DNA from: a virus
Virus record (IMG/VR): IMGVR_UViG_3300025425_000090
Span: 1 to 32,479 of that record
DNA: 32,479 bases
Strand: one strand, 5' to 3'
The notes beneath the pieces were generated by a model. The model did not search any database, was not told where the DNA came from, and saw nothing but the letters and a program-made list of their open reading frames with translations. Below, piece after piece: positions 3 through 13,585 of the stretch. Made by a program: the position numbers and the translations under genes. The first letter of the stretch is position 1; the number at the start of each line of letters is the position of its first letter.

Positions 3-179
3 TTAACTGTGGGTATATCCGTCCAGCTCAATACCTAGCCACATACCAGACCAGCGCACCATAACGCAATCACACCCGGGCAAAACAGTGCGGCGGAATG
101 CCTGATAAGTCAGCCCCTGATTGTTTTGGACCCACTTGCGGTGTAAGGCTTTGCGCTGCTTAGTGCTTAAAATAATCAC
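3..179 (-). CDS. Small conserved phage protein, GTG start (58 aa)
   Basis: The frame opens with GTG at 179, which overlaps the TGA of the DUF932 gene upstream (GTGA junction), and closes with TAA at 3-5. The protein is basic at its N-terminus (STKQRKALHRKW) and ends in a compact aromatic segment, GMWLGIELDGYTHS, preceded by a CDC motif. That ending resembles small proteins I have seen in other phage genomes, but I know of no assigned function. Two Cys in CDC could bind metal; this is inference. It is the last gene of the leftward block visible here, co-transcribed with DUF932. It is complete despite lying at the window edge. Confidence 0.65.
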   Translation of the reverse strand: MIILSTKQRKALHRKWVQNNQGLTYQAFRRTVLPGCDCVMVRWSGMWLGIELDGYTHS

Positions 180-1369
180 GCTGTCACCTTATCCAATAGC
201 GCACCGGCTTTGCGTTCCATATCTATACGCGCATCTTGGTGCGGTATATCCCGGGCAACTGCAGTGATTGCCTGCGCAGCATCCCAAACAGTTTCGACCG
301 GGCGGCCCTCTTCTGCAAGGTGGCGAGCGTTGGCAGCTTTCGCCATGCGTCCAGACAATCCAGCTCGGTTAACTAAAAAGTCAAAACGGCCTGCATCATC
401 CTTTGCAATCTTGGCAGCTTTGGCAGCAAGTACACCCTCGACAAAAGTAGAGGTCGAACCGTTGGCGAACGATTGTAGTGCCGGTCTGGCTTCCTGCGCG
501 AAACGATCCGGCGCGAATTTAGTATGCCGTATTTTAATTTCGCTAAAATTTTCGACCCCCCAAAGGTTTCGATTCATACAAACACCGCGCAGGTACATTG
601 CGGCTATACCCGCCGTCTTACTACCCGTTTCGGAATTCCAAGCATAGAAGCCGCGAAACATTAGATCCGGCTCGCCGTTGGCAAGCTTTCCAACTTCGAT
701 GGGGTTGCGGTCATCCACTAAAAAGACGAACACGTCCCGGTCACTTGCAAACAACGTGGTGGTGTCATTCGTCACGGGGATTTCGGGATCATAGACGGCC
801 ATGCCGTCACGGCTTCCTGTCATCATACCGGGAACTTTCCAACGTCCGCCGCTTGCATCCACCAATTGCTTGACAGGCTCGAGGATCTCCCAATCATAAA
901 TACGGCCATAGTCAGGACCGGTTGCAGCTCTTAACTCGCCGCCGTCGGTTTGGTTACCGTAGACTTTGATTAGCTCCTTGCCCCGGTTATATTTCAAACC
1001 CCACTGCAAACAGTCCGCCGCGATAGGTGCCGGAAGGTCTCGCAAGTAACCAGAAGGTGCCCCGGCAAGCTGGGACAGTTGGCCAAACGACCAATTGGTG
1101 GGGGTGTTGTTGTGCTCGCGGTAATTATCGTCGACGTACTCGACACGGATATCACCACGGCTGGGGTTGACTTCGTCAAACTCGCCTATGATTTTTATCT
1201 TATGAGTGTCAACAGTGCGAGAGGTCATTCGCTGCGCGTCTATCTTCTTATAGGCGAGCATATCGTCGAGGGTTAAAAACTTTTGATCGTCAGGCCGACT
1301 GAACCAATTCGAGGAAACAGCCGAGTTTCCGATACCATGGGCTAAAGCGTTCGTTTGATATGTAGACAT
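176..1369 (-). CDS. DUF932 phage/plasmid-like protein
   Basis: A 397-residue protein that matches the DUF932 (phage/plasmid-like, TIGR03299-type) family in length and layout. It has an N-terminal SNWF segment, a central region with GDIRVEYVDDNY and a WSFGQLSQLAG motif (about residues 92-103), and a C-terminal half with GFYAWNSETGSKTAGIAAM and MNRNLWGVENF. The family is common on phages and plasmids and its biochemical role is not established. The start at 1369 is supported by CGGAG nine bases upstream. A TTGCAA/TATTAT promoter candidate and a terminator lie just upstream, so this gene and the 58-aa gene that follows may form their own short transcript. No anomaly seen. Confidence 0.85.
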   Translation of the reverse strand: MSTYQTNALAHGIGNSAVSSNWFSRPDDQKFLTLDDMLAYKKIDAQRMTSRTVDTHKIKIIGEFDEVNPSRGDIRVEYVDDNYREHNNTPTNWSFGQLSQLAGAPSGYLRDLPAPIAADCLQWGLKYNRGKELIKVYGNQTDGGELRAATGPDYGRIYDWEILEPVKQLVDASGGRWKVPGMMTGSRDGMAVYDPEIPVTNDTTTLFASDRDVFVFLVDDRNPIEVGKLANGEPDLMFRGFYAWNSETGSKTAGIAAMYLRGVCMNRNLWGVENFSEIKIRHTKFAPDRFAQEARPALQSFANGSTSTFVEGVLAAKAAKIAKDDAGRFDFLVNRAGLSGRMAKAANARHLAEEGRPVETVWDAAQAITAVARDIPHQDARIDMERKAGALLDKVTA

Positions 1370-1412
1370 AACCTATGACTCCGTAGATGGGGCACTTAAT
1401 TGCGCCACCTCT

Positions 1413-1648: not shown

Positions 1649-1650
1649 CT

Positions 1651-1887
1651 CTAAACTCCTATTGTTTCTACGGTTAGCTCTGTTTCCAGCCAAACTTTAG
1701 CCCCACAAGAAAGCGGTTTGTTTGGACGGTACACAAGCTTGGCAATGACGACCCCTTCAGCGTCTTTAATCCACGCCTCATTACATTTTCGGTTCTGCGT
1801 ATAATCTTTTACTGTCAACACCGGAAGGTCCGCACCTTTAGCGTTGGCTTTTATATGGTGCTGGTTAACGTGCAATACTGTTTTCAT
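1651..1887 (-). CDS. Conserved hypothetical phage protein (78 aa)
   Basis: The product begins MKTVLHVNQHHIKANAKG, then PVLTVKDY, and ends with KPLSCGAKVWLETELTVET. This looks like a small, probably beta-rich phage protein family with conserved HVNQH and PLSCGA(K/R)VW(L/I)ET motifs that I recall from other phages, without known function. A GAGG sits about 8 bases before ATG 1887. The stop is TAG, two bases before the ATG of the 43-aa gene, so the pair is translationally adjacent. No membrane segment or signal peptide is visible. Confidence 0.7.
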   Translation of the reverse strand: MKTVLHVNQHHIKANAKGADLPVLTVKDYTQNRKCNEAWIKDAEGVVIAKLVYRPNKPLSCGAKVWLETELTVETIGV

Positions 1888-1936
1888 TTTATGACCTCAT
1901 GTCGTAGTTAAGTTAAGACCACACAATGGTATGCGA

Positions 1937-3628: not shown

Positions 3629-3670
3629 CCGAGGCTCCTCTACCTCACCCCCTTGCAGTTGGTGGGTGGG

Positions 3671-3940: not shown

Positions 3941-4169
3941 TACTTATCTCATCTTCAAAACAATGATTTAAAAAACTAAGCGCATGTTTACCAACCAGCC
4001 AAGCATCGTCATCCTCAAAAAACCTTTCGCCAATTGTACGCATATTGTAATGTTCTTTCCCTTTATCAAAAAAAGCTATTACATAACACGAGCTAATTCC
4101 TTGCCATTTTACAAGTTCATGGCTTTGGTTTTGCTCACTCCACCTAAATTCTATATTACCGTATCTCAT
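3933..4169 (-). CDS. Hypothetical protein (78 aa)
   Basis: Starts at ATG 4169 in a TAATG junction with the 41-aa gene upstream. The protein is acidic at its C-terminus (NHCFEDEISNE) and has a likely beta-hairpin start (MRYGNIEFRW). Two aromatic segments, SCYVIAFFDKGKEHYNMRT and DDAWLVGKHALSFL, look like a small alpha/beta domain. No family recognised. It belongs to a chain of overlapping small leftward genes. Confidence 0.55.
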   Translation of the reverse strand: MRYGNIEFRWSEQNQSHELVKWQGISSCYVIAFFDKGKEHYNMRTIGERFFEDDDAWLVGKHALSFLNHCFEDEISNE

Positions 4170-4294
4170 TACTTTGCTCCTTGCCTTTCCAAATCATCCG
4201 CAATTCTTTGTATCATTACTGCTAACTCACGTATCCAAGATGCGTTTTTAGTTCTTATTGCTTCTTCAAGCTCTGTTAAAATAGTTTTATCCAT
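4169..4294 (-). CDS. Small helical protein (41 aa)
   Basis: ATG 4294 is preceded by AGGGG with a short AT spacer (CAGGGGTAAGTAATG) and the gene ends in a TAATG junction with the next gene, both good signs of expression. The product, starting MDKTILTELEEAIRTKNASW, is one or two amphipathic helices with an acidic first half and a basic end. Function unknown. Its SD cassette is nearly the same as that of the methyltransferase remnant at 5079. Confidence 0.55.
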   Translation of the reverse strand: MDKTILTELEEAIRTKNASWIRELAVMIQRIADDLERQGAK

Positions 4295-4307
4295 TACTTA
4301 CCCCTGA

Positions 4308-4376
4308 TTAGCGTATTAATGTCGAATTTGACCATGTTGGAGTTAGTGTAGTGGTTATTAGTTTATCGTTATTCAT
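4308..4376 (-). CDS. Possible 22-aa ORF between small genes
   Basis: ATG 4376 lies four bases after the TAG of the RHH-like gene, with AAGGA seven bases upstream. The peptide (MNNDKLITTTLTPTWSNSTL plus two residues) is Thr-rich and has no recognisable domain. A second frame in the same stretch encodes a 13-aa peptide ending LIRGK. The stretch may be decayed gene sequence that now only carries the RBS of the next gene. Confidence 0.25.
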   Translation of the reverse strand: MNNDKLITTTLTPTWSNSTLIR

Positions 4377-4379
4377 TAT

Positions 4380-4556
4380 CTAGTCCTTGTTTAATTTTAA
4401 TCGCGTCCAGTCTGAGTCGCTTAATCCAGCCGACCTAGCTTTTTCTTTCCACTTTAATTTATCTGCTGCTGTACATCGTATTCGCCAATAATCCCCAATT
4501 ACCTTATCAAGCGGAAGCTTATTGTGCTGATTACCAGTGTTCTTTGCTTTTTTCAT
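4380..4556 (-). CDS. RHH/MobC-like small DNA-binding protein (58 aa)
   Basis: ATG 4556 shares an ATGA junction with the gene upstream and the frame ends with TAG at 4380. The segment DYWRIRCTAADKLKWKEKAR followed by AGLSDSDWTRLKL resembles the core of ribbon-helix-helix proteins and MobC-type relaxosome accessory proteins: a beta strand with alternating basic residues, helix 1, a Gly turn, and an S-x-S-x-W helix 2. I infer DNA binding, perhaps as a local repressor. MobC-like function is only a resemblance, since no relaxase is present. Confidence 0.5.
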   Translation of the reverse strand: MKKAKNTGNQHNKLPLDKVIGDYWRIRCTAADKLKWKEKARSAGLSDSDWTRLKLNKD

Positions 4557-4828
4557 AGTGCCTCAGTCATTAGTCTGTAATTCTCACTCATTAAAGATTT
4601 ATCTCTTCCGCTAACTTCAACTGCATGATCAGGCTTTCCGTCAGGTTTAAAGTATACCCAGCACTGCTTAGGCTCTGGCTTGACTCTGAAGTGGTAAGTT
4701 GAGAAGTCCCAAATTGGCTCATCATCATCTATAGAAATCCACCCTATAGGGCCGGTTAACCATTCAAACTGGATAACCTTCCCATCCTTATGTGCTTGCA
4801 CTACTTCTATTATTTCATCGTGATTCAT
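4553..4828 (-). CDS. Conserved phage protein with YRVKPEP-type motif, paralog A (91 aa)
   Basis: The N-terminus (MNHDEIIEVVQAHKDGKVIQ) is a helix followed by a strand. The middle contains a P-(I/M)-W-(D/N)-F motif, then FRVKPEPK. The same order of motifs occurs in the gene at 9153-9455, so the two are paralogs. The family is frequent in phages, where the N-terminal helix often reads like MIAVLQAAKEGKxIQ, and has no established role. A possible promoter (TTGACC at about 4882) lies upstream after the methyltransferase remnant. The SD is weak. Confidence 0.7.
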   Translation of the reverse strand: MNHDEIIEVVQAHKDGKVIQFEWLTGPIGWISIDDDEPIWDFSTYHFRVKPEPKQCWVYFKPDGKPDHAVEVSGRDKSLMSENYRLMTEAL

Positions 4829-4893
4829 TTTATTTCTCGGCTGCTTTATGACATTACATAGATTTGTGCTAACAGGTCAATGGTTAATTTGAT

Positions 4894-5079
4894 TTACTTC
4901 ATACTCCATTTTGGTTTAGTTATACGCCAGATTTGTTCCCACATCGGTTCAAAGGGAATAGCTGAGTCCCACTTGCAAGATGTTTGGCCGTATGGTGGGT
5001 CTGTCAGTATCATATCGATTGAGCCGTCAGGTATCTCTTTCATTCGCTCTAAGCAGTCGCCTAGCATTAAATTAATCAT
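4894..5079 (-). pseudogene. Truncated N6/N4 DNA methyltransferase (N-terminal fragment)
   Basis: The 61-aa product begins MINLMLGDCLERMKEIPDGS and contains the catalytic motif IV DPPYG followed by a target region start (WDSAIPF) and WEQIWRITKP. This is the N-terminal third of an N6_N4_Mtase-type DNA methyltransferase, in which motif IV precedes the SAM-binding FxGxG motif. Here the frame stops soon after WRITKP. The expected G-A-(I/V) strand and the FxGxG motif are missing downstream in all frames I inspected. The start has a good SD (CAGGGG). Full-length members are about 200-250 aa, so the fragment should be inactive. Confidence 0.75.
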
Positions 5080-5091
5080 TGTTACCCCTGA

Positions 5092-5193
5092 TTAGCATTT
5101 AATTAATTCTCGGCACATCGTCTCAATCACCCAAGGCTCAACGATATAACTTAAAATAAAAAACCCGATTAATCCTATTGCTATAAACTTCAT
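5092..5193 (-). CDS. Small membrane protein (33 aa)
   Basis: Opens in a TAATG junction at 5193 and ends TAA at 5092. Residues 2-20 (KFIAIGLIGFFILSYIVEP) form one hydrophobic span, followed by a short charged tail. One of three consecutive tiny membrane proteins. Function unknown. A holin or superinfection-exclusion role is possible but not supported by a specific motif. Confidence 0.5.
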   Translation of the reverse strand: MKFIAIGLIGFFILSYIVEPWVIETMCRELIKC

Positions 5194-5333
5194 TACCCAC
5201 TCCTGTCGTTGTAGTCTTCATGCTCGTCATCGTCATCGTCATTACCATAGAAGTTCAGGCCCCACGAGGCCAGAGTTAAAAAACCTATGATTATTAAAAT
5301 AAACGTGGTTCCTAATATTAACCAGAAATCCAT
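5193..5333 (-). CDS. Small membrane protein with acidic tail (46 aa)
   Basis: Starts at 5333 in a TAATG junction. Residues 3-24 are hydrophobic (WLILGTTFILIIIGFLTLA). The C-terminus is a highly acidic run (NDDDDDEHED), giving a membrane anchor with an acidic cytoplasmic or periplasmic tail. Translation is probably coupled to both neighbours. No family recognised. Confidence 0.55.
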   Translation of the reverse strand: MDFWLILGTTFILIIIGFLTLASWGLNFYGNDDDDDEHEDYNDRSG

Positions 5334-5470
5334 TACTTAACACTCACATAATTAACAATACACTTGCAAACCTGATAAATGATAACGATTGCCGCTATGA
5401 ACGCGATTACAAATACTTGAGCTGTTATATCTTCAAAATAAAAGTTGATTCTGAGTATTGTTGGTTGCAT
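5333..5470 (-). CDS. Small membrane protein (45 aa)
   Basis: ATG 5470 is preceded by AAGGA nine bases upstream and the frame ends in a TAATG junction. Residues about 17-37 (AQVFVIAFIAAIVIIYQV) form a single transmembrane helix, followed by a Cys-containing tail (CKCIVNYVSVK). It heads the three-gene membrane cluster. Function unknown. Confidence 0.5.
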   Translation of the reverse strand: MQPTILRINFYFEDITAQVFVIAFIAAIVIIYQVCKCIVNYVSVK

Positions 5471-5510
5471 TTGTTACGATCCTTTCTGATTTGCCCCTTC
5501 TTCGGGTTTA

Positions 5511-5810
5511 TTAGTGTATTAACCCTTCTGGGTCGGGGTCTGGAATAAAGTGGTCTGGTGATTTGGCTTGGTAAGCGGCATTTGATAAGCAAGAAGAAAT
5601 TAGTCCCAAGGCGGAGGGAACATCAGGAGATACTTCAATAATGTGGGCGAGGATCTGTGTGAGTGCACCACCGATGGCCGGTCCCGCGTCCATGTCCCGC
5701 GCATGAAACTCCGTTAACAATGCCGCCATCATCTTGGCGGCATTGAAGAAGTCGTCATTGGCTTTACCTTCAGCCTTGGAGTATTCGTTGCCACGATTTT
5801 TCAACGTCAT
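5511..5810 (-). CDS. Hypothetical soluble protein (99 aa)
   Basis: I chose ATG 5810 (MTLKNRGNEYSKAEGKANDD) because AAGG precedes it at good distance. The longer frame from 5849 would run further into the upstream gene. The product is helical with a Gly/Ala-rich centre (AGPAIGGALTQILAHIIEV) and the C-terminal end PDPDPEGLIH. No membrane helix is convincing because of interspersed charges. No family recognised. It overlaps the end of the 59-aa gene by 41 bases in another frame. Confidence 0.6.
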   Translation of the reverse strand: MTLKNRGNEYSKAEGKANDDFFNAAKMMAALLTEFHARDMDAGPAIGGALTQILAHIIEVSPDVPSALGLISSCLSNAAYQAKSPDHFIPDPDPEGLIH

Positions 5811-5949
5811 TAAGCCTTTTCCGTTTTTCATCTGTATTGAGAGTATCATCTTTTTCGATCAGGGTAAGTGCTTGGTTAACCACTTCGTTGATCTGTGATA
5901 CGGCCCACGGCCACCGGATATCGCTTACGCGTTCGTTGCTGGCTTCCAT
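5770..5949 (-). CDS. Small hypothetical protein (59 aa)
   Basis: ATG 5949 (MEASNERVSDIRWPWAVSQI) has a strong SD, GGAGG with a 7-base spacer. That favours it over the upstream in-frame ATG at 6033, which would overlap most of the previous gene. The product is helical with a charged second half (NTDEKRKRLNDVEKSWQRI). It overlaps the genes on both sides by 25 and 41 bases. Function unknown. Confidence 0.6.
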   Translation of the reverse strand: MEASNERVSDIRWPWAVSQINEVVNQALTLIEKDDTLNTDEKRKRLNDVEKSWQRILQG

Positions 5950-6137
5950 GTATCTACCTCCGCATACCATTTGCCGCCTTTGCTTTCGCAAACTTGGACG
6001 TTGATCCAATCTTCGTTTTGGGTCGAGAGCCACGCAAGAAGGTCCTCTCGTTTAATACTGAGATTACACTTCACCCAATCGGGTGCTGTTTCGCGTGGTT
6101 GTTTGGCCACGAGGCCATCAACAAAAATCTTATCCAT
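5925..6137 (-). CDS. Conserved phage hypothetical protein (70 aa)
   Basis: ATG 6137 follows AGGAGAG by a short spacer. The protein (MDKIFVDGLVAKQPRETAPD, then KCNLSIKREDLLAWLS, then ESKGGKWYAEVDTWKP) has a beta-helix-beta layout. Its APDWVKxNLSIKxEDLxxWL and GKWYAxxDxWKP patterns look like a small protein family I recall from other phages, without known function. An intrinsic terminator ends only about 16 bases before its start codon, leaving no room for a separate promoter, so its expression must pass through that hairpin. Confidence 0.65.
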   Translation of the reverse strand: MDKIFVDGLVAKQPRETAPDWVKCNLSIKREDLLAWLSTQNEDWINVQVCESKGGKWYAEVDTWKPATNA

Positions 6138-6152
6138 TATTACTCTCCTTAT

Positions 6153-6191
6153 AAAAAAATGCCCCGAGCCGGGGGCAACCTAACTCGGGGC
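6153..6191 (-). terminator. Rho-independent terminator just upstream of a gene start
   Basis: On the minus strand GCCCCGAG (6191-6184) pairs with CTCGGGGC (6168-6161), an 8-bp GC-rich stem with a 15-nt loop, followed by an A and seven T. It lies 16 bases before the ATG at 6137 and after the 63-aa zinc-ribbon gene ending at 6263. It could be an ordinary operon end or an attenuator for the genes below. Confidence 0.8.
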
Positions 6192-6262
6192 GGGTCTTAA
6201 CTACGGAGAACATGTTGCCATTCTCACGTCCATTATACACCGGGGTATAGGATAAGCAACAC

Positions 6263-6454
6263 TTAATCGCATACATCCTCGGGGAACTCTGCTTTAGATG
6301 TTTTGTCGGCAATAGTAAGCTGGCAGCTTTCGCACCATCGCACTAAATTTTCAACCGTTTTTTCGATTACTTCGAGGGGTTTACTACATTTGGGGCATTC
6401 GTTTCTAACGAGCCTTTTGTGTATTTCCCCTTGCTGTGGGTTTTCTAATTTCAT
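6263..6454 (-). CDS. Small zinc-ribbon protein (63 aa)
   Basis: ATG 6454 is chosen over an earlier in-frame start because AAGGGG lies seven bases upstream. The product has two Cys pairs, CPKC and CESC, separated by 20 residues, the ligand set of a zinc ribbon. The tail is acidic (SKAEFPEDVCD). Such proteins often act in transcription or DNA binding, but no specific partner can be named. It overlaps the RHH gene upstream by 50 bases in another frame, and they probably share the promoter at 6658-6630. Confidence 0.65.
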   Translation of the reverse strand: MKLENPQQGEIHKRLVRNECPKCSKPLEVIEKTVENLVRWCESCQLTIADKTSKAEFPEDVCD

Positions 6455-6599
6455 TATTGACCCCTTGAGTTTCTTTATACGCATCAAAAACAAGGCGGAG
6501 TTGACCGCCGATGGTTCGACCTTCTTTTTTTGCCAGTTCTTTTATCTCTACATAAACTTCTCGCGGAACGAGGATGCTTTTCCAACGTGTTGTATCCAT
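6405..6599 (-). CDS. Ribbon-helix-helix transcription factor-like protein (64 aa)
   Basis: The N-terminal segment RWKSILVPREVYVEIKELAK, then a KEGRTIGGQLRLVFDAY helix, matches the Arc/CopG-type ribbon-helix-helix fold: one strand, helix A, a Gly-containing turn, helix B. Members bind DNA as dimers and in phages usually repress nearby promoters. The tail is disordered and basic (KPTARGNTQKAR). It is the first gene after a TTGCAA-N17-TATTAT promoter, so it may regulate its own operon. Start 6599 has a GAGA-type weak SD. Confidence 0.75.
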   Translation of the reverse strand: MDTTRWKSILVPREVYVEIKELAKKEGRTIGGQLRLVFDAYKETQGVNNEIRKPTARGNTQKAR

Positions 6600-6629
6600 T
6601 TTTATCTCTTTGAGGCCCTAAAGTCTAAG

Positions 6630-6658
6630 ATAATATAAGAATATATACAAGGTTGCAA
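6630..6658 (-). promoter_or_regulatory. Putative sigma70-type promoter
   Basis: Minus-strand TTGCAA (6658-6653), a 17-base spacer, then TATTAT (6635-6630), 31 bases upstream of the RHH gene start. It follows immediately after the polA terminator, so the arrangement is terminator, promoter, new operon. Confidence 0.65.
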
Positions 6659-6659
6659 G

Positions 6660-6682
6660 AAAAACCCCGCCGAAGCAGGGTT
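6660..6682 (-). terminator. Rho-independent terminator after DNA polymerase
   Basis: Minus-strand AACCCTGC pairs with GCGGGGTT (one T-G pair) around a TTCG tetraloop and is followed by T residues. It begins 7 bases after the polymerase stop codon and ends the DUF3310-polymerase unit. Confidence 0.85.
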
Positions 6683-6688
6683 TGAGAA

Positions 6689-8590
6689 TTAGTCAAGCTT
6701 TTTAGCTTCACCCCAAGAAGGTCCCATTTCTATATCGCAAACGTTAGGCACCTCTAAAGGCAAGGCACTCTCCATAACCCGAGCGATCTCTTCAGCTTCT
6801 TCGCGGGTCTTCACCGACATCGCCAGCTCGTCATGGATTTGTAACATCGGGAGTTTTCCCATTTTGTACAGATTGACCATCGCTCGCTTCGTCATGTCTG
6901 CGGCAGATGCTTGTATAAGCCTGTTGAGTGCTTTATAAGTAAACGCCCGCTTGAGTCTGGTCGTAGGTCCGTAGGCATCAACCGCTTCTTTGTAGGGTAG
7001 TGCCTTATTCATGGCGAACGTGTCTGGCTCCCACATATCGAAGCGACACTTGCGGCCTTCGAGTGAGCGCAGCGCACCCCCTGAAGTTCGGTCATTGAGT
7101 CGGTTCATTACACCACTCATCAAGCCCTTAACAAAAGGCACACGGGCATGGTACTGCTTCACCAGCACCTTCGCTTCGTCGACCGAGATGTCCAGTTCTC
7201 CTGACATCTTGTTCACCCCCATCCCGTAGATCAAACCCAAGTTAATGGTCTTCGCCTGCTTCCTTGGTAAGCTCGCCATCTCGGCTACCATGTTATGGAA
7301 GTCGGTTTCTGGCTTCTCATTGTAGGCCGTAACAAAATCAGCCGCGCCTTCTAGGGGTATTCCTCGCGTTTTACCGTATACATGCGCATAATGGACCAAG
7401 ATGCGCGGTTCTTGCTGCGAGAAGTCAATGGCCGCCCACTGCTCGCCTTCTTCAGGTAGAAACAACGAGCGAATCATGGGCCCGTAGATTGGATCGCGAG
7501 CTGGAATTTGTTGTAAATTTGGATTACGCATTGAGATGCGGCCCGACACAGTACCCCCATCATCCGAACGGAGTTGATTAACATGACTATGAATTCGGCC
7601 ATCAGCGTGGCAGTGCTTCATGATGGAATTGATGAAAGTCCCGGAGGTCTTATTCAGATTCCTAGCCTCGACAATAAGCTTCGCGACGGGGTGACTATGC
7701 TCTTGAAGAAAGAATTTGGTAAAGGAAGGTGCTCCTTTCTCAGTCTTTGGATATTGGATTCCGAGGTTGTCGAAAGACTTTGCGAGCGACTGCGCCGCCC
7801 AGATTTCAACGCCCGAGCCTGCGACGTGCTTCAACTCCTTCAAGACCTCCCGTTCCCGTTTAAGGAGGCTATCCCGAGTACGCTCAACTCGGTTGACGTC
7901 AACCCGGACGCCCCGCATAGTCATGTCGACGAGACATGGCAGCAGATCAAGCTCGAGGTTGACGACGTTCCACAGATCCTCTTGGCCTATCTTAATGGAA
8001 AAGTAATTCCACAGTTCAAGGGTAAGCTCCGCGTCAGCTTCAGCGTATGGTCCAACATACATAGCGGGCATCTTCCACATTTCAGCTTTGGGATCGATAC
8101 CGAACTCCCGAGCTGCTTCGACTAACGCCTTCTCAGACTTTGTTTTGTTAAGTAAGTCGTAACAAAGCGCATTCAGGCTGTAGCTGAACCGGTTTTCATC
8201 GAGCAAGGAGGCGACGATCATGGTATCGATGATACGTCCGTTGACCGTGAACCCCATTTGTTTAATCCAACCCAAATCATACTGGGCGTTGTGCATGATC
8301 TTATCAGCCGGACACTCAAATATTTTTTGAAGCCATCGGTTGACGATCTTTTCGTCGAGGTTACCGCCCCCGAAATGACGTATAGGGATATAGCAGGACC
8401 AGCCATCGACTGCGATAGCGTACCCCACCACTTCACCGTCGCCGGTTGGCCAACCGGGACCGTTCACTTTTAGGTTCGGGTCGCGTGTTTCGACATCGAT
8501 GGCAATCTTAGCGGCTCCTGTAATATCGGGCAGCTCTAAAGGTGGAACCCATTCGTTTTTATTAGCGAATATTGACATTTGTAAACTCAT
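6689..8590 (-). CDS. polA: Family A DNA polymerase with 3'-5' exonuclease
   Basis: A 633-aa replicative polymerase of the Pol I type. The proofreading domain shows Exo I (AIDVETRDP, D32 and E34) and Exo II (MHNAQYDLGW, D105). The polymerase domain shows motif A (AIDFSQQEPRI, D389), motif B (RKQAKTINLGLIYGMG) and motif C (MLQIHDELAM, D587). There is no 5'-3' flap nuclease domain, as in T7-like phage polymerases. The residue equivalent to E. coli Phe762 is Leu451 (NLG instead of NFG or NYG). Start 8590 has GAGGA upstream and an ATGA overlap with the DUF3310 gene. Primer synthesis and unwinding are presumably supplied by the rightward PrimPol and helicases. Confidence 0.97.
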   Translation of the reverse strand: MSLQMSIFANKNEWVPPLELPDITGAAKIAIDVETRDPNLKVNGPGWPTGDGEVVGYAIAVDGWSCYIPIRHFGGGNLDEKIVNRWLQKIFECPADKIMHNAQYDLGWIKQMGFTVNGRIIDTMIVASLLDENRFSYSLNALCYDLLNKTKSEKALVEAAREFGIDPKAEMWKMPAMYVGPYAEADAELTLELWNYFSIKIGQEDLWNVVNLELDLLPCLVDMTMRGVRVDVNRVERTRDSLLKREREVLKELKHVAGSGVEIWAAQSLAKSFDNLGIQYPKTEKGAPSFTKFFLQEHSHPVAKLIVEARNLNKTSGTFINSIMKHCHADGRIHSHVNQLRSDDGGTVSGRISMRNPNLQQIPARDPIYGPMIRSLFLPEEGEQWAAIDFSQQEPRILVHYAHVYGKTRGIPLEGAADFVTAYNEKPETDFHNMVAEMASLPRKQAKTINLGLIYGMGVNKMSGELDISVDEAKVLVKQYHARVPFVKGLMSGVMNRLNDRTSGGALRSLEGRKCRFDMWEPDTFAMNKALPYKEAVDAYGPTTRLKRAFTYKALNRLIQASAADMTKRAMVNLYKMGKLPMLQIHDELAMSVKTREEAEEIARVMESALPLEVPNVCDIEMGPSWGEAKKLD

Positions 8591-8823
8591 TCTTTAGTCC
8601 TCGGGTCATCGCCCATTGAGTACCGGAGGTACCAGACGGATTTTTGTTTATCCTGCGTGGAGTCTTCGTTCTTATTATCCATTCGCCATATATATTTAAA
8701 CGCAGCTATCTCGGCATAGACGTTAACTTTGTCTCTACCAAATGCTGCAACCATTGCGTCGATACATTCGATCCCTCCGGCTGAATAGTGTTTGGGCTGT
8801 GAAACCATTTTGTCTTTACTCAT
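8587..8823 (-). CDS. DUF3310 protein (T7 gp1.7-like)
   Basis: The 78-aa product carries the DUF3310 signature: VSQPKHYSAGGIECIDAMVA, then AAFKYIWRMDNKNE, then QKSVWYLRY. DUF3310 is the conserved domain of T7 gp1.7, a nucleotide-metabolism protein reported to have nucleotide kinase activity. A role in nucleotide supply fits its place directly upstream of the polymerase with an ATGA overlap. The start has a strong AAGGGTGG. An intrinsic terminator ends 17 bases before the start codon, so expression requires read-through or antitermination. Confidence 0.85.
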   Translation of the reverse strand: MSKDKMVSQPKHYSAGGIECIDAMVAAFGRDKVNVYAEIAAFKYIWRMDNKNEDSTQDKQKSVWYLRYSMGDDPRTKE

Positions 8824-8840
8824 AAACCACCCTTTTAATT

Positions 8841-8869
8841 AAAAAAGTACGAGCCGTTACAGCTCGCAC
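8841..8869 (-). terminator. Rho-independent terminator upstream of DUF3310-polA
   Basis: Minus-strand GTGCGAGC (8869-8862) pairs with GCTCGTAC (8854-8847), 8 bp with one G-U, a 7-nt loop, then six T. It lies 10 bases after the end of the interrupted small gene and 17 bases before the DUF3310 ATG. Confidence 0.8.
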
Positions 8870-8879
8870 AATGAGGAAA

Positions 8880-9053
8880 TCATCTAATCAAATCATTAAT
8901 TTCATCGTTATAATATGCAGCGTTTTGAAAACTCAGCAAACTAATTAACATTTGCACCCGTTTATGCGGAGTCTCGTTTTTTTCTTTCAGCTCTAAAATC
9001 TAGGCATCTTTGCGAGCGTAATCCTCGCGCACATCTTGCCAGACAACCTTCAT
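8880..9053 (-). pseudogene. Small gene interrupted by an in-frame TAG
   Basis: ATG 9053 has AGAGGA upstream and an ATGA overlap with the previous gene. After 17 codons (MKVVWQDVREDYARKDA) the frame meets TAG at 9002-9000. It then continues open for 39 more codons with protein-like content (ILELKEKNETPHKR, later LISLLSFQNAAYYNDE) to a TGA at 8880, 10 bases before a terminator. The whole unit of 56 sense codons plus TAG reads as one small gene. The possibilities are a nonsense mutation, a sequencing or assembly error, or amber read-through. TAG serves as a normal stop elsewhere in the window, so a global recoding is unlikely. Confidence 0.6.
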
Positions 9054-9214
9054 TTCAAATCCTCTGTGTATTTAACATCAGATTCAATCGTAAACGACTT
9101 AGATAGTAAGCTGGATATATCCGTTGCTGCGCCGACAAGCTCCGCTACGCTGCTAAAGCTGCTCGATAAATGTAGTGATGATATCTTTATTGGAATTTTG
9201 CGCTCGCTTTGCAT
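9050..9214 (-). CDS. Small hypothetical protein overlapping its upstream neighbour (54 aa)
   Basis: ATG 9214 lies inside the 3' end of the preceding gene and the frame runs to a TGA at 9050 that overlaps the next ATG. The product is Ser-rich (ISSLHLSSSFSSVAELVGAA) and ends in KYTEDLK. The same kind of ending (Y-P-E-D-L-K) is encoded just before two other starts nearby, where it carries the next gene's SD. The overlap with the upstream gene is 62 bases. No strong SD of its own, so coupling is likely. Function unknown. Confidence 0.5.
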   Translation of the reverse strand: MQSERKIPIKISSLHLSSSFSSVAELVGAATDISSLLSKSFTIESDVKYTEDLK

Positions 9215-9455
9215 TATCTATGTTTGTATAAGTCATTGATCCTATACTTCCATACTCATAATCAATTCTATAAATTACTCTAGGCTCTGGCTTTACTCTG
9301 TACTCAATCGCATCAAAATTCCACATTGGCCGGTGATCATTGTCATAAGTGTAAAATTCGCCAGCGTTAGCAGCTGTATGGCGCTTTCCTTGAATCGTTT
9401 TTCCTTCTTGCGCTGCCTCTAAAACTGCAATCATTTCCTTTCTTGTTTGTTTCAT
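9153..9455 (-). CDS. Conserved phage protein with YRVKPEP motif, paralog B (100 aa)
   Basis: I place the start at ATG 9455 (MKQTRKEMIAVLEAAQEGKT). It has AGAGG seven bases upstream and an ATGA overlap with the preceding gene, while the in-frame alternative at 9479 does not. Motifs PMWNFDAIEYRVKPEPR parallel those of the gene at 4553-4828. A C-terminal extension (IYRIDYEYGSIGSMTYTNID) is specific to this copy. The family is common in phages, with unknown role. Confidence 0.75.
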   Translation of the reverse strand: MKQTRKEMIAVLEAAQEGKTIQGKRHTAANAGEFYTYDNDHRPMWNFDAIEYRVKPEPRVIYRIDYEYGSIGSMTYTNIDNAKRAQNSNKDIITTFIEQL

Positions 9456-9694
9456 TCTGACACCTCTGGGATTATCCAAGTTTGTTCTGGCTCGGGTAAG
9501 TTACAAAGAGCTTCTACATAAAAAAACGCTTTTTGAGTTGGCTTATAAGTTCGATGTAGATCATCATCACTAATCAAATAACCATTGTTTAATAAATAAC
9601 ATATAGCATCTTGCCGCACTGGAGAATGTAGCGTGTTATAATCGTTTCCCGACCAACTATAATGTATTAATATAATTAATTTTAAAGGACTCAT
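9452..9694 (-). CDS. Hypothetical protein (80 aa)
   Basis: ATG 9694 has AGAGGA upstream. The protein begins MSPLKLIILIHYSWSG and continues with a segment that reads like a winged-helix (SPVRQDAICYLLNNGYLISD, then YKPTQKAFFYVEALCNLP). The order helix, turn, NGYL strand and then KAFFYVEALC suggests a small DNA-binding or protein-interaction domain of the winged-helix type; this is inference. The last codons overlap the next start (ATGA). Confidence 0.6.
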   Translation of the reverse strand: MSPLKLIILIHYSWSGNDYNTLHSPVRQDAICYLLNNGYLISDDDLHRTYKPTQKAFFYVEALCNLPEPEQTWIIPEVSE

Positions 9695-9718
9695 TTTGTT
9701 TCCTCTGGTAATGTTGTG

Positions 9719-9880
9719 TTAATCCCAAACTATCAAAGCTATGGCAGTAAGAAAAGAACCCGCTACCATACTAATTCCTATTTTTAAATCTGGTGTTGGA
9801 TCTAGCATTGCTGGCATAATTATAGTTCCAATTATAACTCCAATTATAATTAATATACTGTTAACTTCTATGCTTTTCAT
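9719..9880 (-). CDS. Small two-span membrane protein (53 aa)
   Basis: ATG 9880 carries the recurring AGAGGATTTGAAATG start. The product has two hydrophobic segments, residues about 9-25 (ILIIIGVIIGTIIMPAM) and 35-52 (IGISMVAGSFLTAIALIV), separated by a short polar turn (LDPTPDLK). Two-span proteins of this size can be holins or membrane-altering phage factors, but the location in an early accessory cluster argues against a lysis role. Function unknown. Confidence 0.55.
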   Translation of the reverse strand: MKSIEVNSILIIIGVIIGTIIMPAMLDPTPDLKIGISMVAGSFLTAIALIVWD

Positions 9881-9904
9881 TTCAAATCCTCTGGGTAATC
9901 GATG

Positions 9905-10075
9905 TTAATCAGGCATTATAGCCTTTACAAATGTAAGTGCTTTAAATCTTGCCTGAGGGAAAACTTGGTTATCAATCATCAATTTACTATCAGACCTAAC
10001 ATAAACTGGATACCAGATATCACCTTCTCGCGGGTCGGTAAACCAATACCAACAATTTTTTTCCAATTCTTTCAT
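9905..10075 (-). CDS. Small hypothetical protein, aromatic-rich (56 aa)
   Basis: ATG 10075 has the same AGAGGATTTAAAATG start box. The product (MKELEKNCWYWFTDPREGDI, then WYPVYVRSD) looks like a small beta-rich domain with aromatic residues, followed by a helix (QARFKALTFVKAIMPD). No family recognised. Its downstream sequence, in another frame, encodes a short YPEDLK-type end that carries the next gene's SD. Confidence 0.5.
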   Translation of the reverse strand: MKELEKNCWYWFTDPREGDIWYPVYVRSDSKLMIDNQVFPQARFKALTFVKAIMPD

Positions 10076-10152
10076 TTTAAATCCTCTGGGTATTCTAATC
10101 TGATGTTTAAGCGTAATGCTGCGCCCGTAATACCGTCAAATTGTTGTGGTAA
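10072..10152 (-). pseudogene. Start-less in-frame extension downstream of the HNH-like gene
   Basis: After the TAA of the HNH-like gene (10155-10153) the same frame stays open for 26 codons (PQQFDGITGAALRLNIRLEY and a PEDLK end) and closes with a TGA that overlaps the next ATG. There is no ATG, GTG or TTG inside it. The protein-like content and the exact ATGA junction suggest the remnant of a former small gene, or a C-terminal extension cut off by a stop mutation. Its ending matches those before 9880 and 9053. Confidence 0.4.
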
Positions 10153-10374
10153 TTAATTCAGGTTATTGCAATTTATAGCCGGTCCTCTTTCTGCATTACA
10201 TTTACGACAAACCGGATCAACGTCTAGTGGCTTCATGTAATCCCTATGATCATAACTGTGCGCTGGTTTTCCACAATCTACGCAATCTATACTTCCATCT
10301 AATATAGGTAAGTCGCCGTTATTTCTGGCTTGAGTGACCAATGCATGAGCGCGAGTACTATTTAAGCTTCTCAC
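10153..10374 (-). CDS. HNH-like zinc-binding phage protein (73 aa)
   Basis: The product has CVDCGKPAHSYDHRDYMKPL followed by DPVCRKCNAERGPA. Two CxxC pairs flank a DHRDY motif, the layout of HNH/endonuclease VII-type small phage proteins. I chose GTG 10374 because it gives a GTGA overlap with the upstream gene and has AGGAG ten bases before it. The in-frame GTG at 10410 would overlap the neighbour more. Nuclease activity is plausible but catalytic completeness is uncertain in such short forms. The frame continues past the TAA stop (see 10072-10152). Confidence 0.65.
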   Translation of the reverse strand: MRSLNSTRAHALVTQARNNGDLPILDGSIDCVDCGKPAHSYDHRDYMKPLDVDPVCRKCNAERGPAINCNNLN

Positions 10375-10661
10375 TTTATCTGCTCTCCTGTTCCGTCGCA
10401 TGACTTGCACACTTCAATAACGCCAGTCACATCTTTACCGTAATAAATAACGAGCTCACATTGCCCGTTGCAAGCTACGCATTTAACCGATTTTCTCAAA
10501 TGGTCATTTAATAGCTGCACCTTTCTAATGCCGTAATCATTCAATACATCGTTGCGAAAATCATAAATCCACCTCATTTTTAATTTAGTTTTACTTGCTA
10601 TAAATTCAGGCGTTAAGCCTGTTCGTTTAAGTAATGACCTAGTCTGTTTTTCTATTTTCAT
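10371..10661 (-). CDS. HTH regulator fused to a DnaJ-type zinc-finger motif (96 aa)
   Basis: Residues about 7-35 (RSLLKRTGLTPEFIASKTKL onward) read as a helix-turn-helix of the Cro/repressor type. The C-terminal half has CVACNGQC (61-68) and CKSCDGTG (85-92), two CxxCxGx(C/G) repeats as in the DnaJ zinc finger. The combination suggests a DNA-binding protein stabilised or dimerised by zinc. It is the first gene of the leftward arm, facing the rightward arm across a 114-base control region with paired TTGCAA boxes, so it may regulate the divergent promoters. The SD is weak. Confidence 0.65.
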   Translation of the reverse strand: MKIEKQTRSLLKRTGLTPEFIASKTKLKMRWIYDFRNDVLNDYGIRKVQLLNDHLRKSVKCVACNGQCELVIYYGKDVTGVIEVCKSCDGTGEQIK

Positions 10662-10775
10662 TCTTGCAGTGTATAGTAGTTGTTAATTATTGCAAGCAAT
10701 TAATTGCAAATAAATAGTTTACATACTGATTAATAGAGCGCATACTTTACTAAGAATTAAAACAGGAATTACAAA
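10662..10775. promoter_or_regulatory. Divergent control region with paired TTGCAA boxes
   Basis: Rightward promoter candidate: TTTACA (10718-10723), 17 bases, CATACT (10741-10746), 30 bases before the HNH gene. Operator-like elements: ATTGCAA at 10689-10695 and 10703-10709, spaced 14 bases, with the perfect 12-base palindrome GCAATTAATTGC (10696-10707) between and into the second box. On the minus strand the 10690-10695 box could serve as -35 for TATACA near 10676, so a bound repressor could cover both promoters. Confidence 0.5.
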
Positions 10776-11177
10776 ATGAGTAAACCACGGTTACATAAAA
10801 ACACTGGATACATGCATATCTGGCACGAAAGTAAGGCGGTGTATTATCATCGTTATGTATGGCTAAAAGCTTACGGCGAATGGCCTGATGGAGAGATAGA
10901 TCACATTGATCACGATAAGTTAAACAACTCTATTGGTAATCTTAGGGTTGTAAGCCACAGAGAGAATAACCTTAATAGGTCAATGGATTCCAGAAACACC
11001 AGTGGATTTAATGGGGTAAGCTGGCATGATGCTAGAGGCAAATGGAAGTCTTCTATAACGGTTCTAGGTAAAAATAAACACCTGTACTATGGAGATTGCT
11101 TACTTGACGCAGTAGCGACCCGAATGTCAGCTAACAGAAAATATGGTTTTCACAATAATCACGGAGTAGCAAAATGA
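10776..11177 (+). CDS. HNH homing endonuclease with AP2 domain
   Basis: The 133-aa protein has an HNH module (YHRYVWLKAYGEWPDG, then IDHIDHDKLNNSIGNLRVVS with His/Asn ligands at about 43, 55 and 61). It is followed by an AP2-type DNA-binding domain (SGFNGVSWHDARGKWKSSI, then GDCLLDAVATRMSANRKYG). This is the usual freestanding phage HNH-AP2 endonuclease, which promotes its own spread by cutting DNA lacking it. It sits first behind the rightward promoter and ends in an ATGA overlap with the next gene. SD AGGA is present. Confidence 0.9.
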   Translation: MSKPRLHKNTGYMHIWHESKAVYYHRYVWLKAYGEWPDGEIDHIDHDKLNNSIGNLRVVSHRENNLNRSMDSRNTSGFNGVSWHDARGKWKSSITVLGKNKHLYYGDCLLDAVATRMSANRKYGFHNNHGVAK

Positions 11178-11419
11178 ATGAATACACTATAAGACCACTT
11201 GGCGCACCACCACTTCCAAGGATAGATATTGTCTTTGGTGAAAACATCCACGCTGAAGCGATCTATGATTTTAACCATGAAGATTTGATTGAGTTGATTG
11301 CTTTAATGGCTCCAGTTGGACATAACGGAAGTAGCGTTAATATAATAGATGATTTAAGTGAATCAAGCATTGGTAAGGCGCGATTTGCTTTGCGTGATGC
11401 AATAGACGAGGCTGAATAA
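11174..11419 (+). CDS. Hypothetical acidic protein (81 aa)
   Basis: Starts in an ATGA overlap with the endonuclease. The N-terminus (MNEYTIRPLGAPPLPRIDIV) is Pro-rich and likely extended. The rest is an acidic alpha/beta segment (YDFNHEDLIELIALMAP) ending in a helix (SIGKARFALRDAIDEAE). No family recognised. Ends with a TAATG junction to the next gene, so the small genes here are tightly coupled. Confidence 0.55.
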   Translation: MNEYTIRPLGAPPLPRIDIVFGENIHAEAIYDFNHEDLIELIALMAPVGHNGSSVNIIDDLSESSIGKARFALRDAIDEAE

Positions 11420-11550
11420 TGAGCGACTACGACGAATGGAAACTAGCATATAACCCTGCTTGGGACGACGAAGACGACGAAGACGAGCTGACTTACGAAG
11501 AACGCAAAGAACAATATGAAGTTAATCAATGGGAGAGTAATAATGACTGA
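11419..11550 (+). CDS. Very acidic small protein (43 aa)
   Basis: ATG 11419 overlaps the previous TAA. The product has a strongly acidic core (WDDEDDEDELTYEERKEQ) and few hydrophobic residues. Such small acidic phage proteins can act as DNA mimics or bind host enzymes. That is a possibility from composition only. It overlaps the next gene by 8 bases. Confidence 0.55.
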   Translation: MSDYDEWKLAYNPAWDDEDDEDELTYEERKEQYEVNQWESNND

Positions 11551-11836
11551 TTCAATTACAAGAGAAGATTTAGCAGAGGTAATAAGATGTATGGAATGCC
11601 CTGAAGTGGTGACTAAATGCGAGGTTGAGCTGATAGGCGAAGCAATATTAGAGCAAGCCTTCCCGCCTAAGTTTGTGCCTAGAGTTGGTCAGGTTGTGGC
11701 TGTGTGGCGTGATTATGGCCAAGTTAAGTTTGATAAATTTAAATTAATGGATAGTACAAAAGCGCCTTATGTGTGCGAAATTAGTGATTGGCATAATTGC
11801 CGAGCATTGACAGCAGAAGAAAAGGGTGAGCTATGA
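11543..11836 (+). CDS. Hypothetical protein (97 aa)
   Basis: ATG 11543 (MTDSITREDLAEVIRCMECP) is preferred over the in-frame ATG at 11516 because GGGAG lies seven bases upstream. The second half, PRVGQVVAVWRDYGQVKF and further HNCRALTAEE, resembles a small beta-barrel domain of the type seen in phage proteins with a V(G/R)QVVAVW start. Three Cys near the N-terminus (C16, C19, C27) may bind metal. Function unknown. Confidence 0.6.
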   Translation: MTDSITREDLAEVIRCMECPEVVTKCEVELIGEAILEQAFPPKFVPRVGQVVAVWRDYGQVKFDKFKLMDSTKAPYVCEISDWHNCRALTAEEKGEL

Positions 11837-11949
11837 GTGAATTTGACAAAAGAGTAAAGCGGTTAGTTGATAAGCATAACTATCCTTTGGATTTAGCTTA
11901 CGCAGTAGTATGGCGAGAAGTCACGGAGGCACAAAAGGAAAGAAATTAA
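11833..11949 (+). CDS. Small helical protein (38 aa)
   Basis: ATGA overlap with the preceding gene. The peptide (MSEFDKRVKRLVDKHNYPLD, then LAYAVVWREVTEAQKERN) is amphipathic and helical. It is the last gene before a 209-base gap with a strong promoter. Function unknown; the start is supported by the overlap and a GGGTGAG SD. Confidence 0.45.
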   Translation: MSEFDKRVKRLVDKHNYPLDLAYAVVWREVTEAQKERN

Positions 11950-12079
11950 ACTTAGAGCTTGTAATAATCACTTAAAAGTTTAGTTAGAGATATCTTTCTT
12001 AATCTAATTTCCTTTTTGTTCATTTTTACCCTCCCCCCCCCTAACTTTATAACATTATCTAATTTTTTTTTTAAACCGC

Positions 12080-12107
12080 TTGACATGTGTAGGATATAAG
12101 ATAATAT
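12080..12107 (+). promoter_or_regulatory. Strong sigma70-type promoter for the replication cassette
   Basis: TTGACA (12080-12085), a 16-base spacer and TAATAT (12102-12107), about 50 bases before the coiled-coil gene. It is the best consensus match seen in the window. The 130 bases before it contain no gene, only a C9 tract (12033-12041) and T/A tracts. Confidence 0.75.
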
Positions 12108-12158
12108 CTACCTTTGTCAAGGCCCAAAAGGTGCCTTTAACCACGAAGGAGAGAAGTT

Positions 12159-12740
12159 ATGAGTGTAGATTTAACCCAAATGATGGAGGCCGACTTTGAA
12201 AACAAGCAGGCAACCAGTGTTGAGAAGATAGACCAACAAGGACTTACCACGGTAGCCGAGTTGGCCCGCCAAATAAGAGACAAAGAAGTAACGATTGAAG
12301 CCCTTGAGGAAACTATCAAGGAATACAAGAAAGACCTTCAGAAGCTTACTGACGAAGAAATGCCTGCAATGCTTGCTGAAATCGGTATATCTTCTTTTGC
12401 CCTCGACGACGGTTCTACCGTTGAGGTCAAACAAACGTATGGAGCCTCCATACTTGTTCAAAACCGTCCAACCGCTTTTGAGTGGCTACGTGACCATCAG
12501 TACGGTGACATTATTAAAAATACTGTCTCGTGCCAATTTGGCCGTGGTGAGGACGATCAAGCAAGCGCCTTTTCTACGTTCGCGGAAACACATGGGTTTC
12601 TACCACAACAGAAAACCGAGATACACCCGCAAACGTTACGTGCTTTCGTAAAAGAAAGATGTGAGGCAGGAGAGGAATTCCCCATGGAGTTATTTGGGGC
12701 TTGGGTAGGTCAACGTGCAGTTATTAAGAGAGGAAAGTAA
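12159..12740 (+). CDS. Coiled-coil protein of the replication cassette (193 aa)
   Basis: Residues about 28-67 form a coiled coil (LTTVAELARQIRDKEVTIEA, then LEETIKEYKKDLQKL). The remainder is a mixed domain including FALDDGSTVEVKQTYGASI and a C-terminal FPMELFGAWVGQRAVIKRGK. Proteins of this layout occur next to ssDNA-binding proteins in phages and are usually annotated as hypothetical or coil-containing. I infer an accessory replication or virion-assembly role without direct evidence. GGAG lies before ATG 12159, and the next start follows at once. Confidence 0.65.
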   Translation: MSVDLTQMMEADFENKQATSVEKIDQQGLTTVAELARQIRDKEVTIEALEETIKEYKKDLQKLTDEEMPAMLAEIGISSFALDDGSTVEVKQTYGASILVQNRPTAFEWLRDHQYGDIIKNTVSCQFGRGEDDQASAFSTFAETHGFLPQQKTEIHPQTLRAFVKERCEAGEEFPMELFGAWVGQRAVIKRGK

Positions 12741-12741
12741 A

Positions 12742-13521
12742 ATGACACAAGCAAAACAAGTAGCAAAACAAGAATCAACCGCAATGGCGGAATTTGATCC
12801 ATCCATGTTTGAAGCCGATGCAGGTCGGGGCATGGAAAACATGGGACAAGAAGACTTAGCGCTTCCTTTCCTAAAAGTTCTTTCAGGCAATGACCCTATA
12901 TTAGACGAAAATGAAGTGGCTCGTAAGGGGGATATTTACAATACTGTAACCGGGGCAGTTTACAAAGGTAAGGAAGGCATACGAGTTATCCCTTGTGCTT
13001 ATCAGCGTAGATTCATCCAATGGGCACCTCGCGGCATGGGGAGCGGTGCCCCCACTGCAATTTATGAACCCGGTGAGGTGCGTCCAGAAACAGCTCGGTC
13101 TAGCGATGACAACAAAGACTATGTTGCTGACGGTAGCGGGGAGTATATTGAGGAAACACATCAGCACTTCGTCGTCCTCGTTGGGGAAGACGGAGCGTTT
13201 GAGACAGCTTTGATTGCAATGAAATCTACGCAGCTTAAAAAGTCGCGGAAGTGGAATAGCATCATGGCGTCACGTTCGATGCACGGATCAAAAGGGCCGT
13301 TTACCCCTCCACGCTTTTCGCACATTTACCACCTAAAAACAATCTCTGAGGAAAACTCAAAAGGTTCGTGGCACGGTTGGGAAATGTCGGTAGATAGTGC
13401 CATTGCGGATGCTGGCCTGTACGGTAGAGCAAAAGCTTTTGCCAACAGTATAACGAGTGGTGCCGTTGTTGTTAAACATACGGATGACGATGACTTAAAT
13501 AACGACGACGTGCCTTTTTAG
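12742..13521 (+). CDS. Probable single-stranded DNA-binding protein (259 aa)
   Basis: ATG 12742 has AGAGGA upstream and is preferred over the in-frame ATG at 12715. The N-terminal LALPFLKVLSGNDP and the central EGIRVIPCAYQRRFIQW look like an OB-type beta-rich core. The C-terminus is acidic and ends DDDDLNNDDVPF, the kind of acidic tip with terminal Phe by which SSB proteins bind partner proteins. Position between the coiled-coil protein and primase supports a replication SSB role. The core fold is not certain from sequence alone. Confidence 0.6.
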   Translation: MTQAKQVAKQESTAMAEFDPSMFEADAGRGMENMGQEDLALPFLKVLSGNDPILDENEVARKGDIYNTVTGAVYKGKEGIRVIPCAYQRRFIQWAPRGMGSGAPTAIYEPGEVRPETARSSDDNKDYVADGSGEYIEETHQHFVVLVGEDGAFETALIAMKSTQLKKSRKWNSIMASRSMHGSKGPFTPPRFSHIYHLKTISEENSKGSWHGWEMSVDSAIADAGLYGRAKAFANSITSGAVVVKHTDDDDLNNDDVPF

Positions 13522-13585
13522 TCAAGTGGTCTAGTGTCTAGGCGGGGCGTTGTGCCGCGCCTATTTTTCCGTATGGGGGCAGTCT

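Follow-up and report, generated by a model that had tools for sequence, protein, structure and literature searches.

A candidate phage small RNA ending in the terminator before gene 6137 is predicted to repress a phage regulon

The viral DNA analyzed here, the whole IMG/VR virus record IMGVR_UViG_3300025425_000090 (32,479 bases; hereafter the window), carries two strong hairpins with T runs placed just before start codons: hairpin 1 precedes a DUF3310 gene followed by polA, and hairpin 2 precedes a 70-amino-acid gene that starts at position 6137 (gene 6137). Comparison with related contigs makes it likely that hairpin 2 ends a phage-encoded small RNA (sRNA), which would act in trans to repress a phage regulon, that termination there leaves gene 6137 to read-through, and that hairpin 1 is a separate terminator; the two look different in kind, hairpin 2 being the tail of a small RNA and hairpin 1 an ordinary terminator.

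A candidate conserved RNA ends at hairpin 2

Hairpin 2 pairs 6191-6184 with 6168-6161 on the minus strand (8 pairs) and is followed by T7 at 6159-6153, as the initial annotation had described, except that 15 bases, not 16, separate the T run from the ATG at 6137. The 85-nucleotide (nt) stretch that holds it folds with z = -3.18, and 0/200 dinucleotide shuffles fold equally well. The non-coding DNA at 6276-6157 aligns with many relatives; its parts and the gene that follows are:

6246..6273, minus: operator-like inverted repeat TATGCGAT...ATCCTATA around the -35 (from sequence; recurs in relatives)
6232..6259, minus: promoter-like TTGCTT-16 nt-TATAAT, putative promoter of the small RNA (from sequence)
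~6225-6153, minus: candidate small RNA, ~70 nt (covariance model and covariation; 5′ end placed from the promoter)
6208..6225, minus: stem-loop 1, with one mismatch in the window (covariation, fold)
6201..6208, minus: linker CTCCGTAG (RNA CUCCGUAG), unpaired, seed 1
6161..6191, minus: hairpin 2, the terminator stem of the small RNA, with its T7 tract (fold, covariation)
6178-6173, minus: seed 2, TTGCCC in the terminator loop (RNA UUGCCC)
5925..6137, minus: gene 6137, 70 amino acids, no Pfam or PHROG match, presumably transcribed by read-through past hairpin 2

In most of the 53 regions found before homologs of gene 6137, this arrangement is kept from the inverted repeat to the gene: the -35 is TTGC, the -10 resembles TATAAT, and a variable stem-loop, CTCCGTAG and a terminator whose loop holds TTGCCC come next, ahead of a T run and the gene itself. 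The promoter-like sequence and the terminator of the window are both recurrent in relatives.

To describe the element as an RNA, a covariance model (R1) was built from 34 copies, including that of the window. The first collection, at least 119 stretches, mixed true RNAs with target leaders read in antisense and with chance matches in coding regions; the collected loci yielded 82 distinct cores, 36 of which passed a filter for promoter and T run. R1 matches the window at 6156-6231 (minus strand, 79 bits), 54/81 sources of the polA set (E<=1.1e-5) and 24 of 50 DUF932-bearing records (E<=5e-10; 50 of 77 loci scanned). The polA relatives are the best 80 of at least 600 IMG/VR loci and the DUF932 relatives the best 80 of 266, and the tallies here and below describe close relatives. 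Eight weak opposite-strand matches of R1 proved on examination to be target leaders, not RNAs. The RNA-bearing phages were found only as metagenome contigs: neither the small RNA region (blastn) nor gene 6137 (tblastn) has a match in 50,697 phage records, and R1 gave no match at E<=1 in six whole named phages (DSL-LC04, HTVC023P, HTVC027P, 023Pt_psg01, Mae-JY30 and S-ESS1). The polA of the window is 49-56% identical to that of its four closest named phages, DSL-LC04, 023Pt_psg01 and the pelagiphages HTVC023P and HTVC027P.

The secondary structure of the candidate is conserved. Across 55 aligned copies and both stems, the covariation score is 0.531, against 0.153 in shuffled alignments and at most 0.102 with slid partners; double-change cells number 159 against 46.5; paired cells make up 90.4%, compared with 68.9% in shuffles and 35-50% when partners are slid; and 11/15 pairs change on both sides (9.1 in shuffles). 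MAFFT had partly misregistered stem-loop 1, and the alignment was redone through the covariance model; because such an alignment leans to structure, an alignment-free fold was added, which gave stem-loop 1 a mean z of -2.27 over 52 of the 55 copies, three being left out since the seed pattern was unmatched in them.

Two further features of the RNA may be recorded. In the window and some relatives, the loop of stem-loop 1 (GGCAAC, 6219-6214) complements the terminator loop (GTTGCC, 6179-6174; both minus strand); a contact within the small RNA is possible but not conserved, the loop varying in relatives. In L066, L073 and L074 (records G074-G076), the RNA has a divergent relative that carries a terminator of its own.

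The linker complements Shine-Dalgarno sites of phage genes

What might an invariant, unpaired linker recognize? Its RNA sequence, CUCCGUAG, is perfectly complementary to CUACGGAG at the Shine-Dalgarno (SD) site of the window's DUF932 gene, and a second leader carries longer complementary stretches:

1379..1386, minus: target site CTACGGAG at the SD position of the DUF932 gene
176..1369, minus: DUF932 gene, predicted target (Pfam PF06067, 24 bits, cut-off 23)
1903..1920, minus: GGTCTTAACTTAACTACG, in the leader of gene 1651-1887; complements the linker over stretches of 10 nt and 9 nt
1930..1936, minus: operator half-site TCGCATA, which overlaps the -10 of gene 1651-1887
1651..1887, minus: 78-amino-acid gene, the window's second predicted target

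Complementary runs of at least 10 and at least 8 nt in two of the 41 leaders of the window are matched by 1/5000 random permutations of the linker. The unpaired seed is complementary to mRNAs encoded elsewhere, although energy ranking alone is not decisive. Just upstream of the DUF932 promoter region, at 1491-1510, stands a hairpin that scores as terminator-like on both strands.

The same complementarity recurs at start sites in relatives. TACGGAG is present in 39/51 distinct DUF932 leaders; and in nine sRNA-bearing records, the 256 NNNNGGAG 8-mers in SD context are led by CTACGGAG, with 22 occurrences (one being antisense to an sRNA copy), and TTACGGAG, with 13, the next reaching 10. An SD of the target type precedes 101 genes in 32 protein clusters (43 records; a few of these are probably spurious), a tally from which three SD matches were dropped as antisense of the sRNA. 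Pfam assigned a family to four of ten scanned target proteins: DUF932, DUF7227, GP88 and Kyano_Gp96.

Linker and target change together

Leaders were chosen by the operator half-site alone, with no selection on the seed, and were de-duplicated, some loci lying on the same contigs; linker groups were set by hand, automatic typing having mislabelled some records. The main group comprises the 56 records with linker CTCCGTAG, three of which (G002, G003, L004) have ATCCGTAG. Where the linker is NTCCGTAG, YTA[CT]GGAG is found in 81/138 half-site leaders, the fourth base never being A or G; it is found in 1/17 with linker CTCT[AG]TAG and in 0/5 in three records without the sRNA (Fisher 3e-5 and 0.014). 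A matched change is seen with linker CTTCGTAG (RNA CUUCGUAG): the gene MNIENS..., which stands in a DUF932-type leader context, has the SD CTACGAAG (RNA CUACGAAG) in 4/4 records holding the gene, restoring a Watson-Crick pair (GAAG versus GGAG, Fisher 5.5e-4), whereas other targets in this lineage keep GGAG and would pair through U-G. These Fisher values overstate independence, because leaders are related by descent.

Seed and target thus co-vary through the CTTCGTAG/CTACGAAG pair; in the CTCT[AG]TAG lineage the co-variation is weak or shifted. A few targets there have CTATGGAG, whose pairing with CUCUAUAG would include one wobble, but 21/138 leaders with linker CTCCGTAG have CTATGGAG as well, and at that base the CTCT[AG]TAG and main types do not differ significantly (p 0.27).

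Operator half-sites are present in 63/91 target leaders against 19/442 control leaders, and also in the promoter of the sRNA. Because many targets have them, transcription and translation of the target set are probably controlled together. A candidate reader of the shared operator promoters is a short protein encoded at 15124-15294 (plus strand), between primase-like and helicase genes, which looks helix-turn-helix-like; the DSL-LC04 gene at the matching position is annotated "RNA polymerase sigma-G factor".

A possible second contact in some targets

Among the targets there is a complement of the terminator loop as well. GGGCAA occurs in 31/91 distinct target leaders and in 21/442 control leaders (p 1.6e-13), and a hairpin loop contains one of five tested hexamers in 27/91 target as against 13/442 control leaders. 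In one type of target leader, the stem around GGGCAA changes while GGGCAA stays. The motifs are arranged as antiparallel pairing demands: in the target the loop precedes the SD, and in the RNA the SD seed precedes the loop.

Proposed mechanism and the points against it

Covarying structure, complementarity, enrichment at start sites and linker-SD co-variation can all be read from the DNA. The scheme that follows goes further, in that transcription, the RNA ends, repression as the sign of the effect, and its timing are deduced from these features. Transcription would start near 6225 from the operator-bearing promoter and mostly stop at the T7 tract, releasing an RNA of ~70 nt that consists of stem-loop 1, the linker CUCCGUAG, which is left unpaired, and a terminator hairpin whose loop contains UUGCCC. 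This linker would pair with (C/U)UA(C/U)GGAG at the SD of a set of phage genes and block ribosome loading; in a minority of targets, UUGCCC of the terminator loop may also kiss the GGGCAA loop of a leader hairpin. Polymerases that pass the terminator would make the mRNA of gene 6137.

Several observations weigh against this scheme. (i) In the window itself, stem-loop 1 contains a mismatch and its fold is weak (z -1.36); the gapped duplex energy with the linker ranks gene 1651-1887 third and DUF932 sixth of 41 leaders; a cofold of both full RNAs gives no seed pairing; and CTACGGAG with at most one mismatch occurs at chance level (18 versus 17.4), therefore position alone speaks for the target site. 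(ii) The second contact is far from general: GGGCAA is absent from 60/91 target leaders, and the window's DUF932 leader has GCGCAA instead. (iii) RNA and targets do not always co-occur: 10/33 sRNA-bearing records, most of them fragments, yielded no target of this kind; G043, a 25-kb fragment, has four target-type genes and no RNA found in the fragment; G074 and G075, with five and seven target genes, carry only a divergent RNA, which R1 detects barely or not at all; and DSL-LC04 has two SD-context YTACGGAG genes in the 25.9 kb read and no whole-phage RNA match. (iv) SD pairing in the CTCT[AG]TAG lineage is largely lost or shifted (UUAACUA with UAGUUAA). The DSL-LC04 genes (OR003939.1, locus L319) may reflect chance or a more divergent RNA.

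Hairpin 1 and the polymerase genes

Rho-independent terminators consist of a G-C-rich stem followed by a T run. Hairpin 1 has these features, with a short loop, 10 nt past the end of an open reading frame (ORF):

8847..8869, with T6 8846-8841, minus: hairpin 1, putative terminator after a lineage-specific module, with no counterpart in relatives except the near-identical L002
8880..9053, minus: small ORF with in-frame TAG at 9002-9000, ending 10 nt before hairpin 1
8587..8823, minus: DUF3310 gene (Pfam PF11753, 41.2 bits), followed by polA (6689-8590)

The hairpin is where the initial annotation had located it, 17 bases from the ATG at 8823. Its stem has 8 Watson-Crick and 2 G-U pairs around a 3-base loop; the 56-nt stretch holding it folds with z = -4.17, equaled by 0/200 dinucleotide shuffles; and it has the most G-C pairs (6) in a terminator scan of 1-16000, where hairpin 2 is one of five sites with 5. 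The scan found 23 sites against 15.7 (standard deviation 3.8) in shuffles. Rfam 15 reached no family on 8820-9060 (best 19.7 bits, gathering score 60) or on 6130-6300 (best 15.1 bits, gathering score 39), and over the whole window nothing came close to any gathering score.

Could hairpin 1 set polymerase dosage, with partial termination or a phage antiterminator controlling DUF3310-polA? The strength of the hairpin and its T6, 17 nt before DUF3310, are in favor, and so is the spacing: the earlier claim that neither hairpin leaves room for a promoter holds, as 17 and 15 bases are too short for a sigma-70 promoter. The accompanying contrast with polA stands only in part: its terminator (6680-6665) and a promoter-like sequence (6658-6630) exist, but the comparison is weak because promoter-like sites match chance in number (26 found, 26.9 expected). 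Relatives argue against dosage control. A DUF3310 match near polA with readable upstream sequence was available at ten loci (L002, L003, L066, L067, L068, L070, L071, L073, L074 and L081), and a strong terminator in the 190 nt before DUF3310 was found only in L002, a near-identical contig (L117 is the same contig, and L001 the window itself), and in 0/9 others; nor was one found in the 120 nt before polA in any of 69 relatives without DUF3310, some represented by less sequence. The module before the hairpin (8830-10700) matched none of the other collected loci by blastn except, again, L002. With hairpin and module both missing from the remaining polA relatives, dosage control finds no support and seems unlikely; the simplest reading of the sequence is that hairpin 1 would be the terminator of an acquired module.

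The ORF at 8880-9053 is open on both sides of its in-frame TAG (58 codons including the end stop); it may represent a broken gene, read-through or an assembly difference, and L002 has the same DNA.

An attenuator or a DNA element?

Hairpin 2 poses a similar question, since a terminator between a promoter-like sequence and gene 6137 is what the leader of a cis-acting attenuator would have. A protein, an antiterminator or a ligand would relieve termination, and the conserved parts would serve gene 6137 only. Part of this proposal, already raised by the initial annotation, is plausible: read-through into gene 6137 fits the upstream TTGCTT-16-TATAAT (minus strand, 6259-6232), the lack of promoter room after the terminator, and the recurrence of promoter-like sequence, leader, terminator and gene in that order before homologs. 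As an explanation of the hairpin, attenuation or antitermination fares worse than a conserved trans-acting small RNA whose 3′ end the hairpin would form: an attenuator leaves unexplained both an invariant linker that complements the SD of 32 clusters of other genes and the co-variation of linker and SD; in L066, L073 and L074, the homolog of gene 6137 seems to have its own promoter after the terminator; and the alignment of RNA copies reveals no conserved competing antiterminator or sensor, although no systematic search was made. We consider a cis-acting attenuator improbable. The L066/L073/L074 homolog seems to have, besides its own promoter, a target-type SD (TTACGGAG).

That the repeated CTACGGAG/CTCCGTAG is instead a DNA element, such as a protein-binding site of co-regulated promoters whose SD position is incidental, agrees with the enrichment of operator half-sites in target leaders and their presence in the sRNA promoter but is highly improbable, given that the motif lies a few bases before the start codon at varying distance from the -10 between target families, that the fourth-base substitution found in quantity is C to T, which G-U pairing permits, and that a second motif is complementary in antiparallel order and sits in RNA hairpin loops.

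Comparison with known regulators

The small RNA proposed here resembles several known regulators in part. As in the Staphylococcus aureus RNAIII/coa mRNA pair, SD occlusion would be combined with a loop-loop contact, and several RNAIII target mRNAs share a signature, according to the excerpted text of that report (PMC2837412); RNAIII, however, is an effector of bacterial quorum sensing, whereas here the regulator and its predicted targets are all phage genes, and the RNAIII loop-loop contact described there is in the coding region, whereas here it would lie in the leader upstream of the SD (PMC2837412). No homology is claimed. The c4 RNA of P1 and P7, which acts around the ribosome-binding site, and the sar RNA of P22 are likewise phage antisense RNAs that block translation of phage mRNA (PMC12197685, in excerpt). 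In that account, each is described with one target, the ant mRNA (PMC12197685), as against 32 protein clusters here; and the present small RNA is encoded away from its predicted targets. VpdS of phage VP882 and PreS of phage lambda are trans-acting small RNAs encoded by phages, and both are said to bind Hfq; VpdS targets host sRNAs and has effects on phage as well as host mRNAs, and PreS targets host dnaN (PMC12197685). The predicted targets here are phage genes. The same excerpt describes phage-encoded small RNAs mostly with a single target or with host targets (PMC12197685).

The number of phage targets and the shared operator are what distinguish this RNA from RNAIII, c4 and sar. The category of Rho-independent terminators covers all of hairpin 1 as well as the 3′ end of the sRNA, but hairpin 2 also carries a conserved loop sequence resembling a second seed. 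A search of the literature on phage small and structured RNAs, with coverage that excluded bioRxiv preprints and took in few subscription journals, gave no description of such an RNA among the titles and abstract openings listed.

Implications

What emerges here from sequence alone is a conserved candidate RNA, a predicted phage regulon of many genes and natural variation in both partners of the pairing. Genes that are for the most part unknown (DUF932, DUF7227, GP88, Kyano_Gp96 and others) become a candidate co-regulated group, and the predicted regulation is open to reporter testing without a cultured phage. A more speculative idea, which we regard as doubtful, is that the linker/SD pair is an address code: each lineage would mark its own genes with a private SD that its small RNA recognizes, atop the shared operator, so that one RNA could shut the set down. 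Were this true, a competitor's genes could be silenced by another phage, resident or co-infecting, that shares its code, and lineages with changed codes (CTTCGTAG, CTCT[AG]TAG) would escape silencing.

Related sequences in bacterial genomes

Relatives of the DUF932 protein, ~50% identical, are common in alphaproteobacterial genomes (loci L404-L481). A DUF932 scan of GTDB genomes yielded mainly such alphaproteobacterial relatives, and leaders were read for the best two loci. In the first, a contig binned in a Rhodospirillales metagenome-assembled genome (MAG; L402, 1-4923), CTACGGAG appears four times in target-type leaders; in the second, a contig binned in a Verrucomicrobiales MAG (L403, around 11228), TTACGGAG is accompanied by a GGGCAA hairpin.
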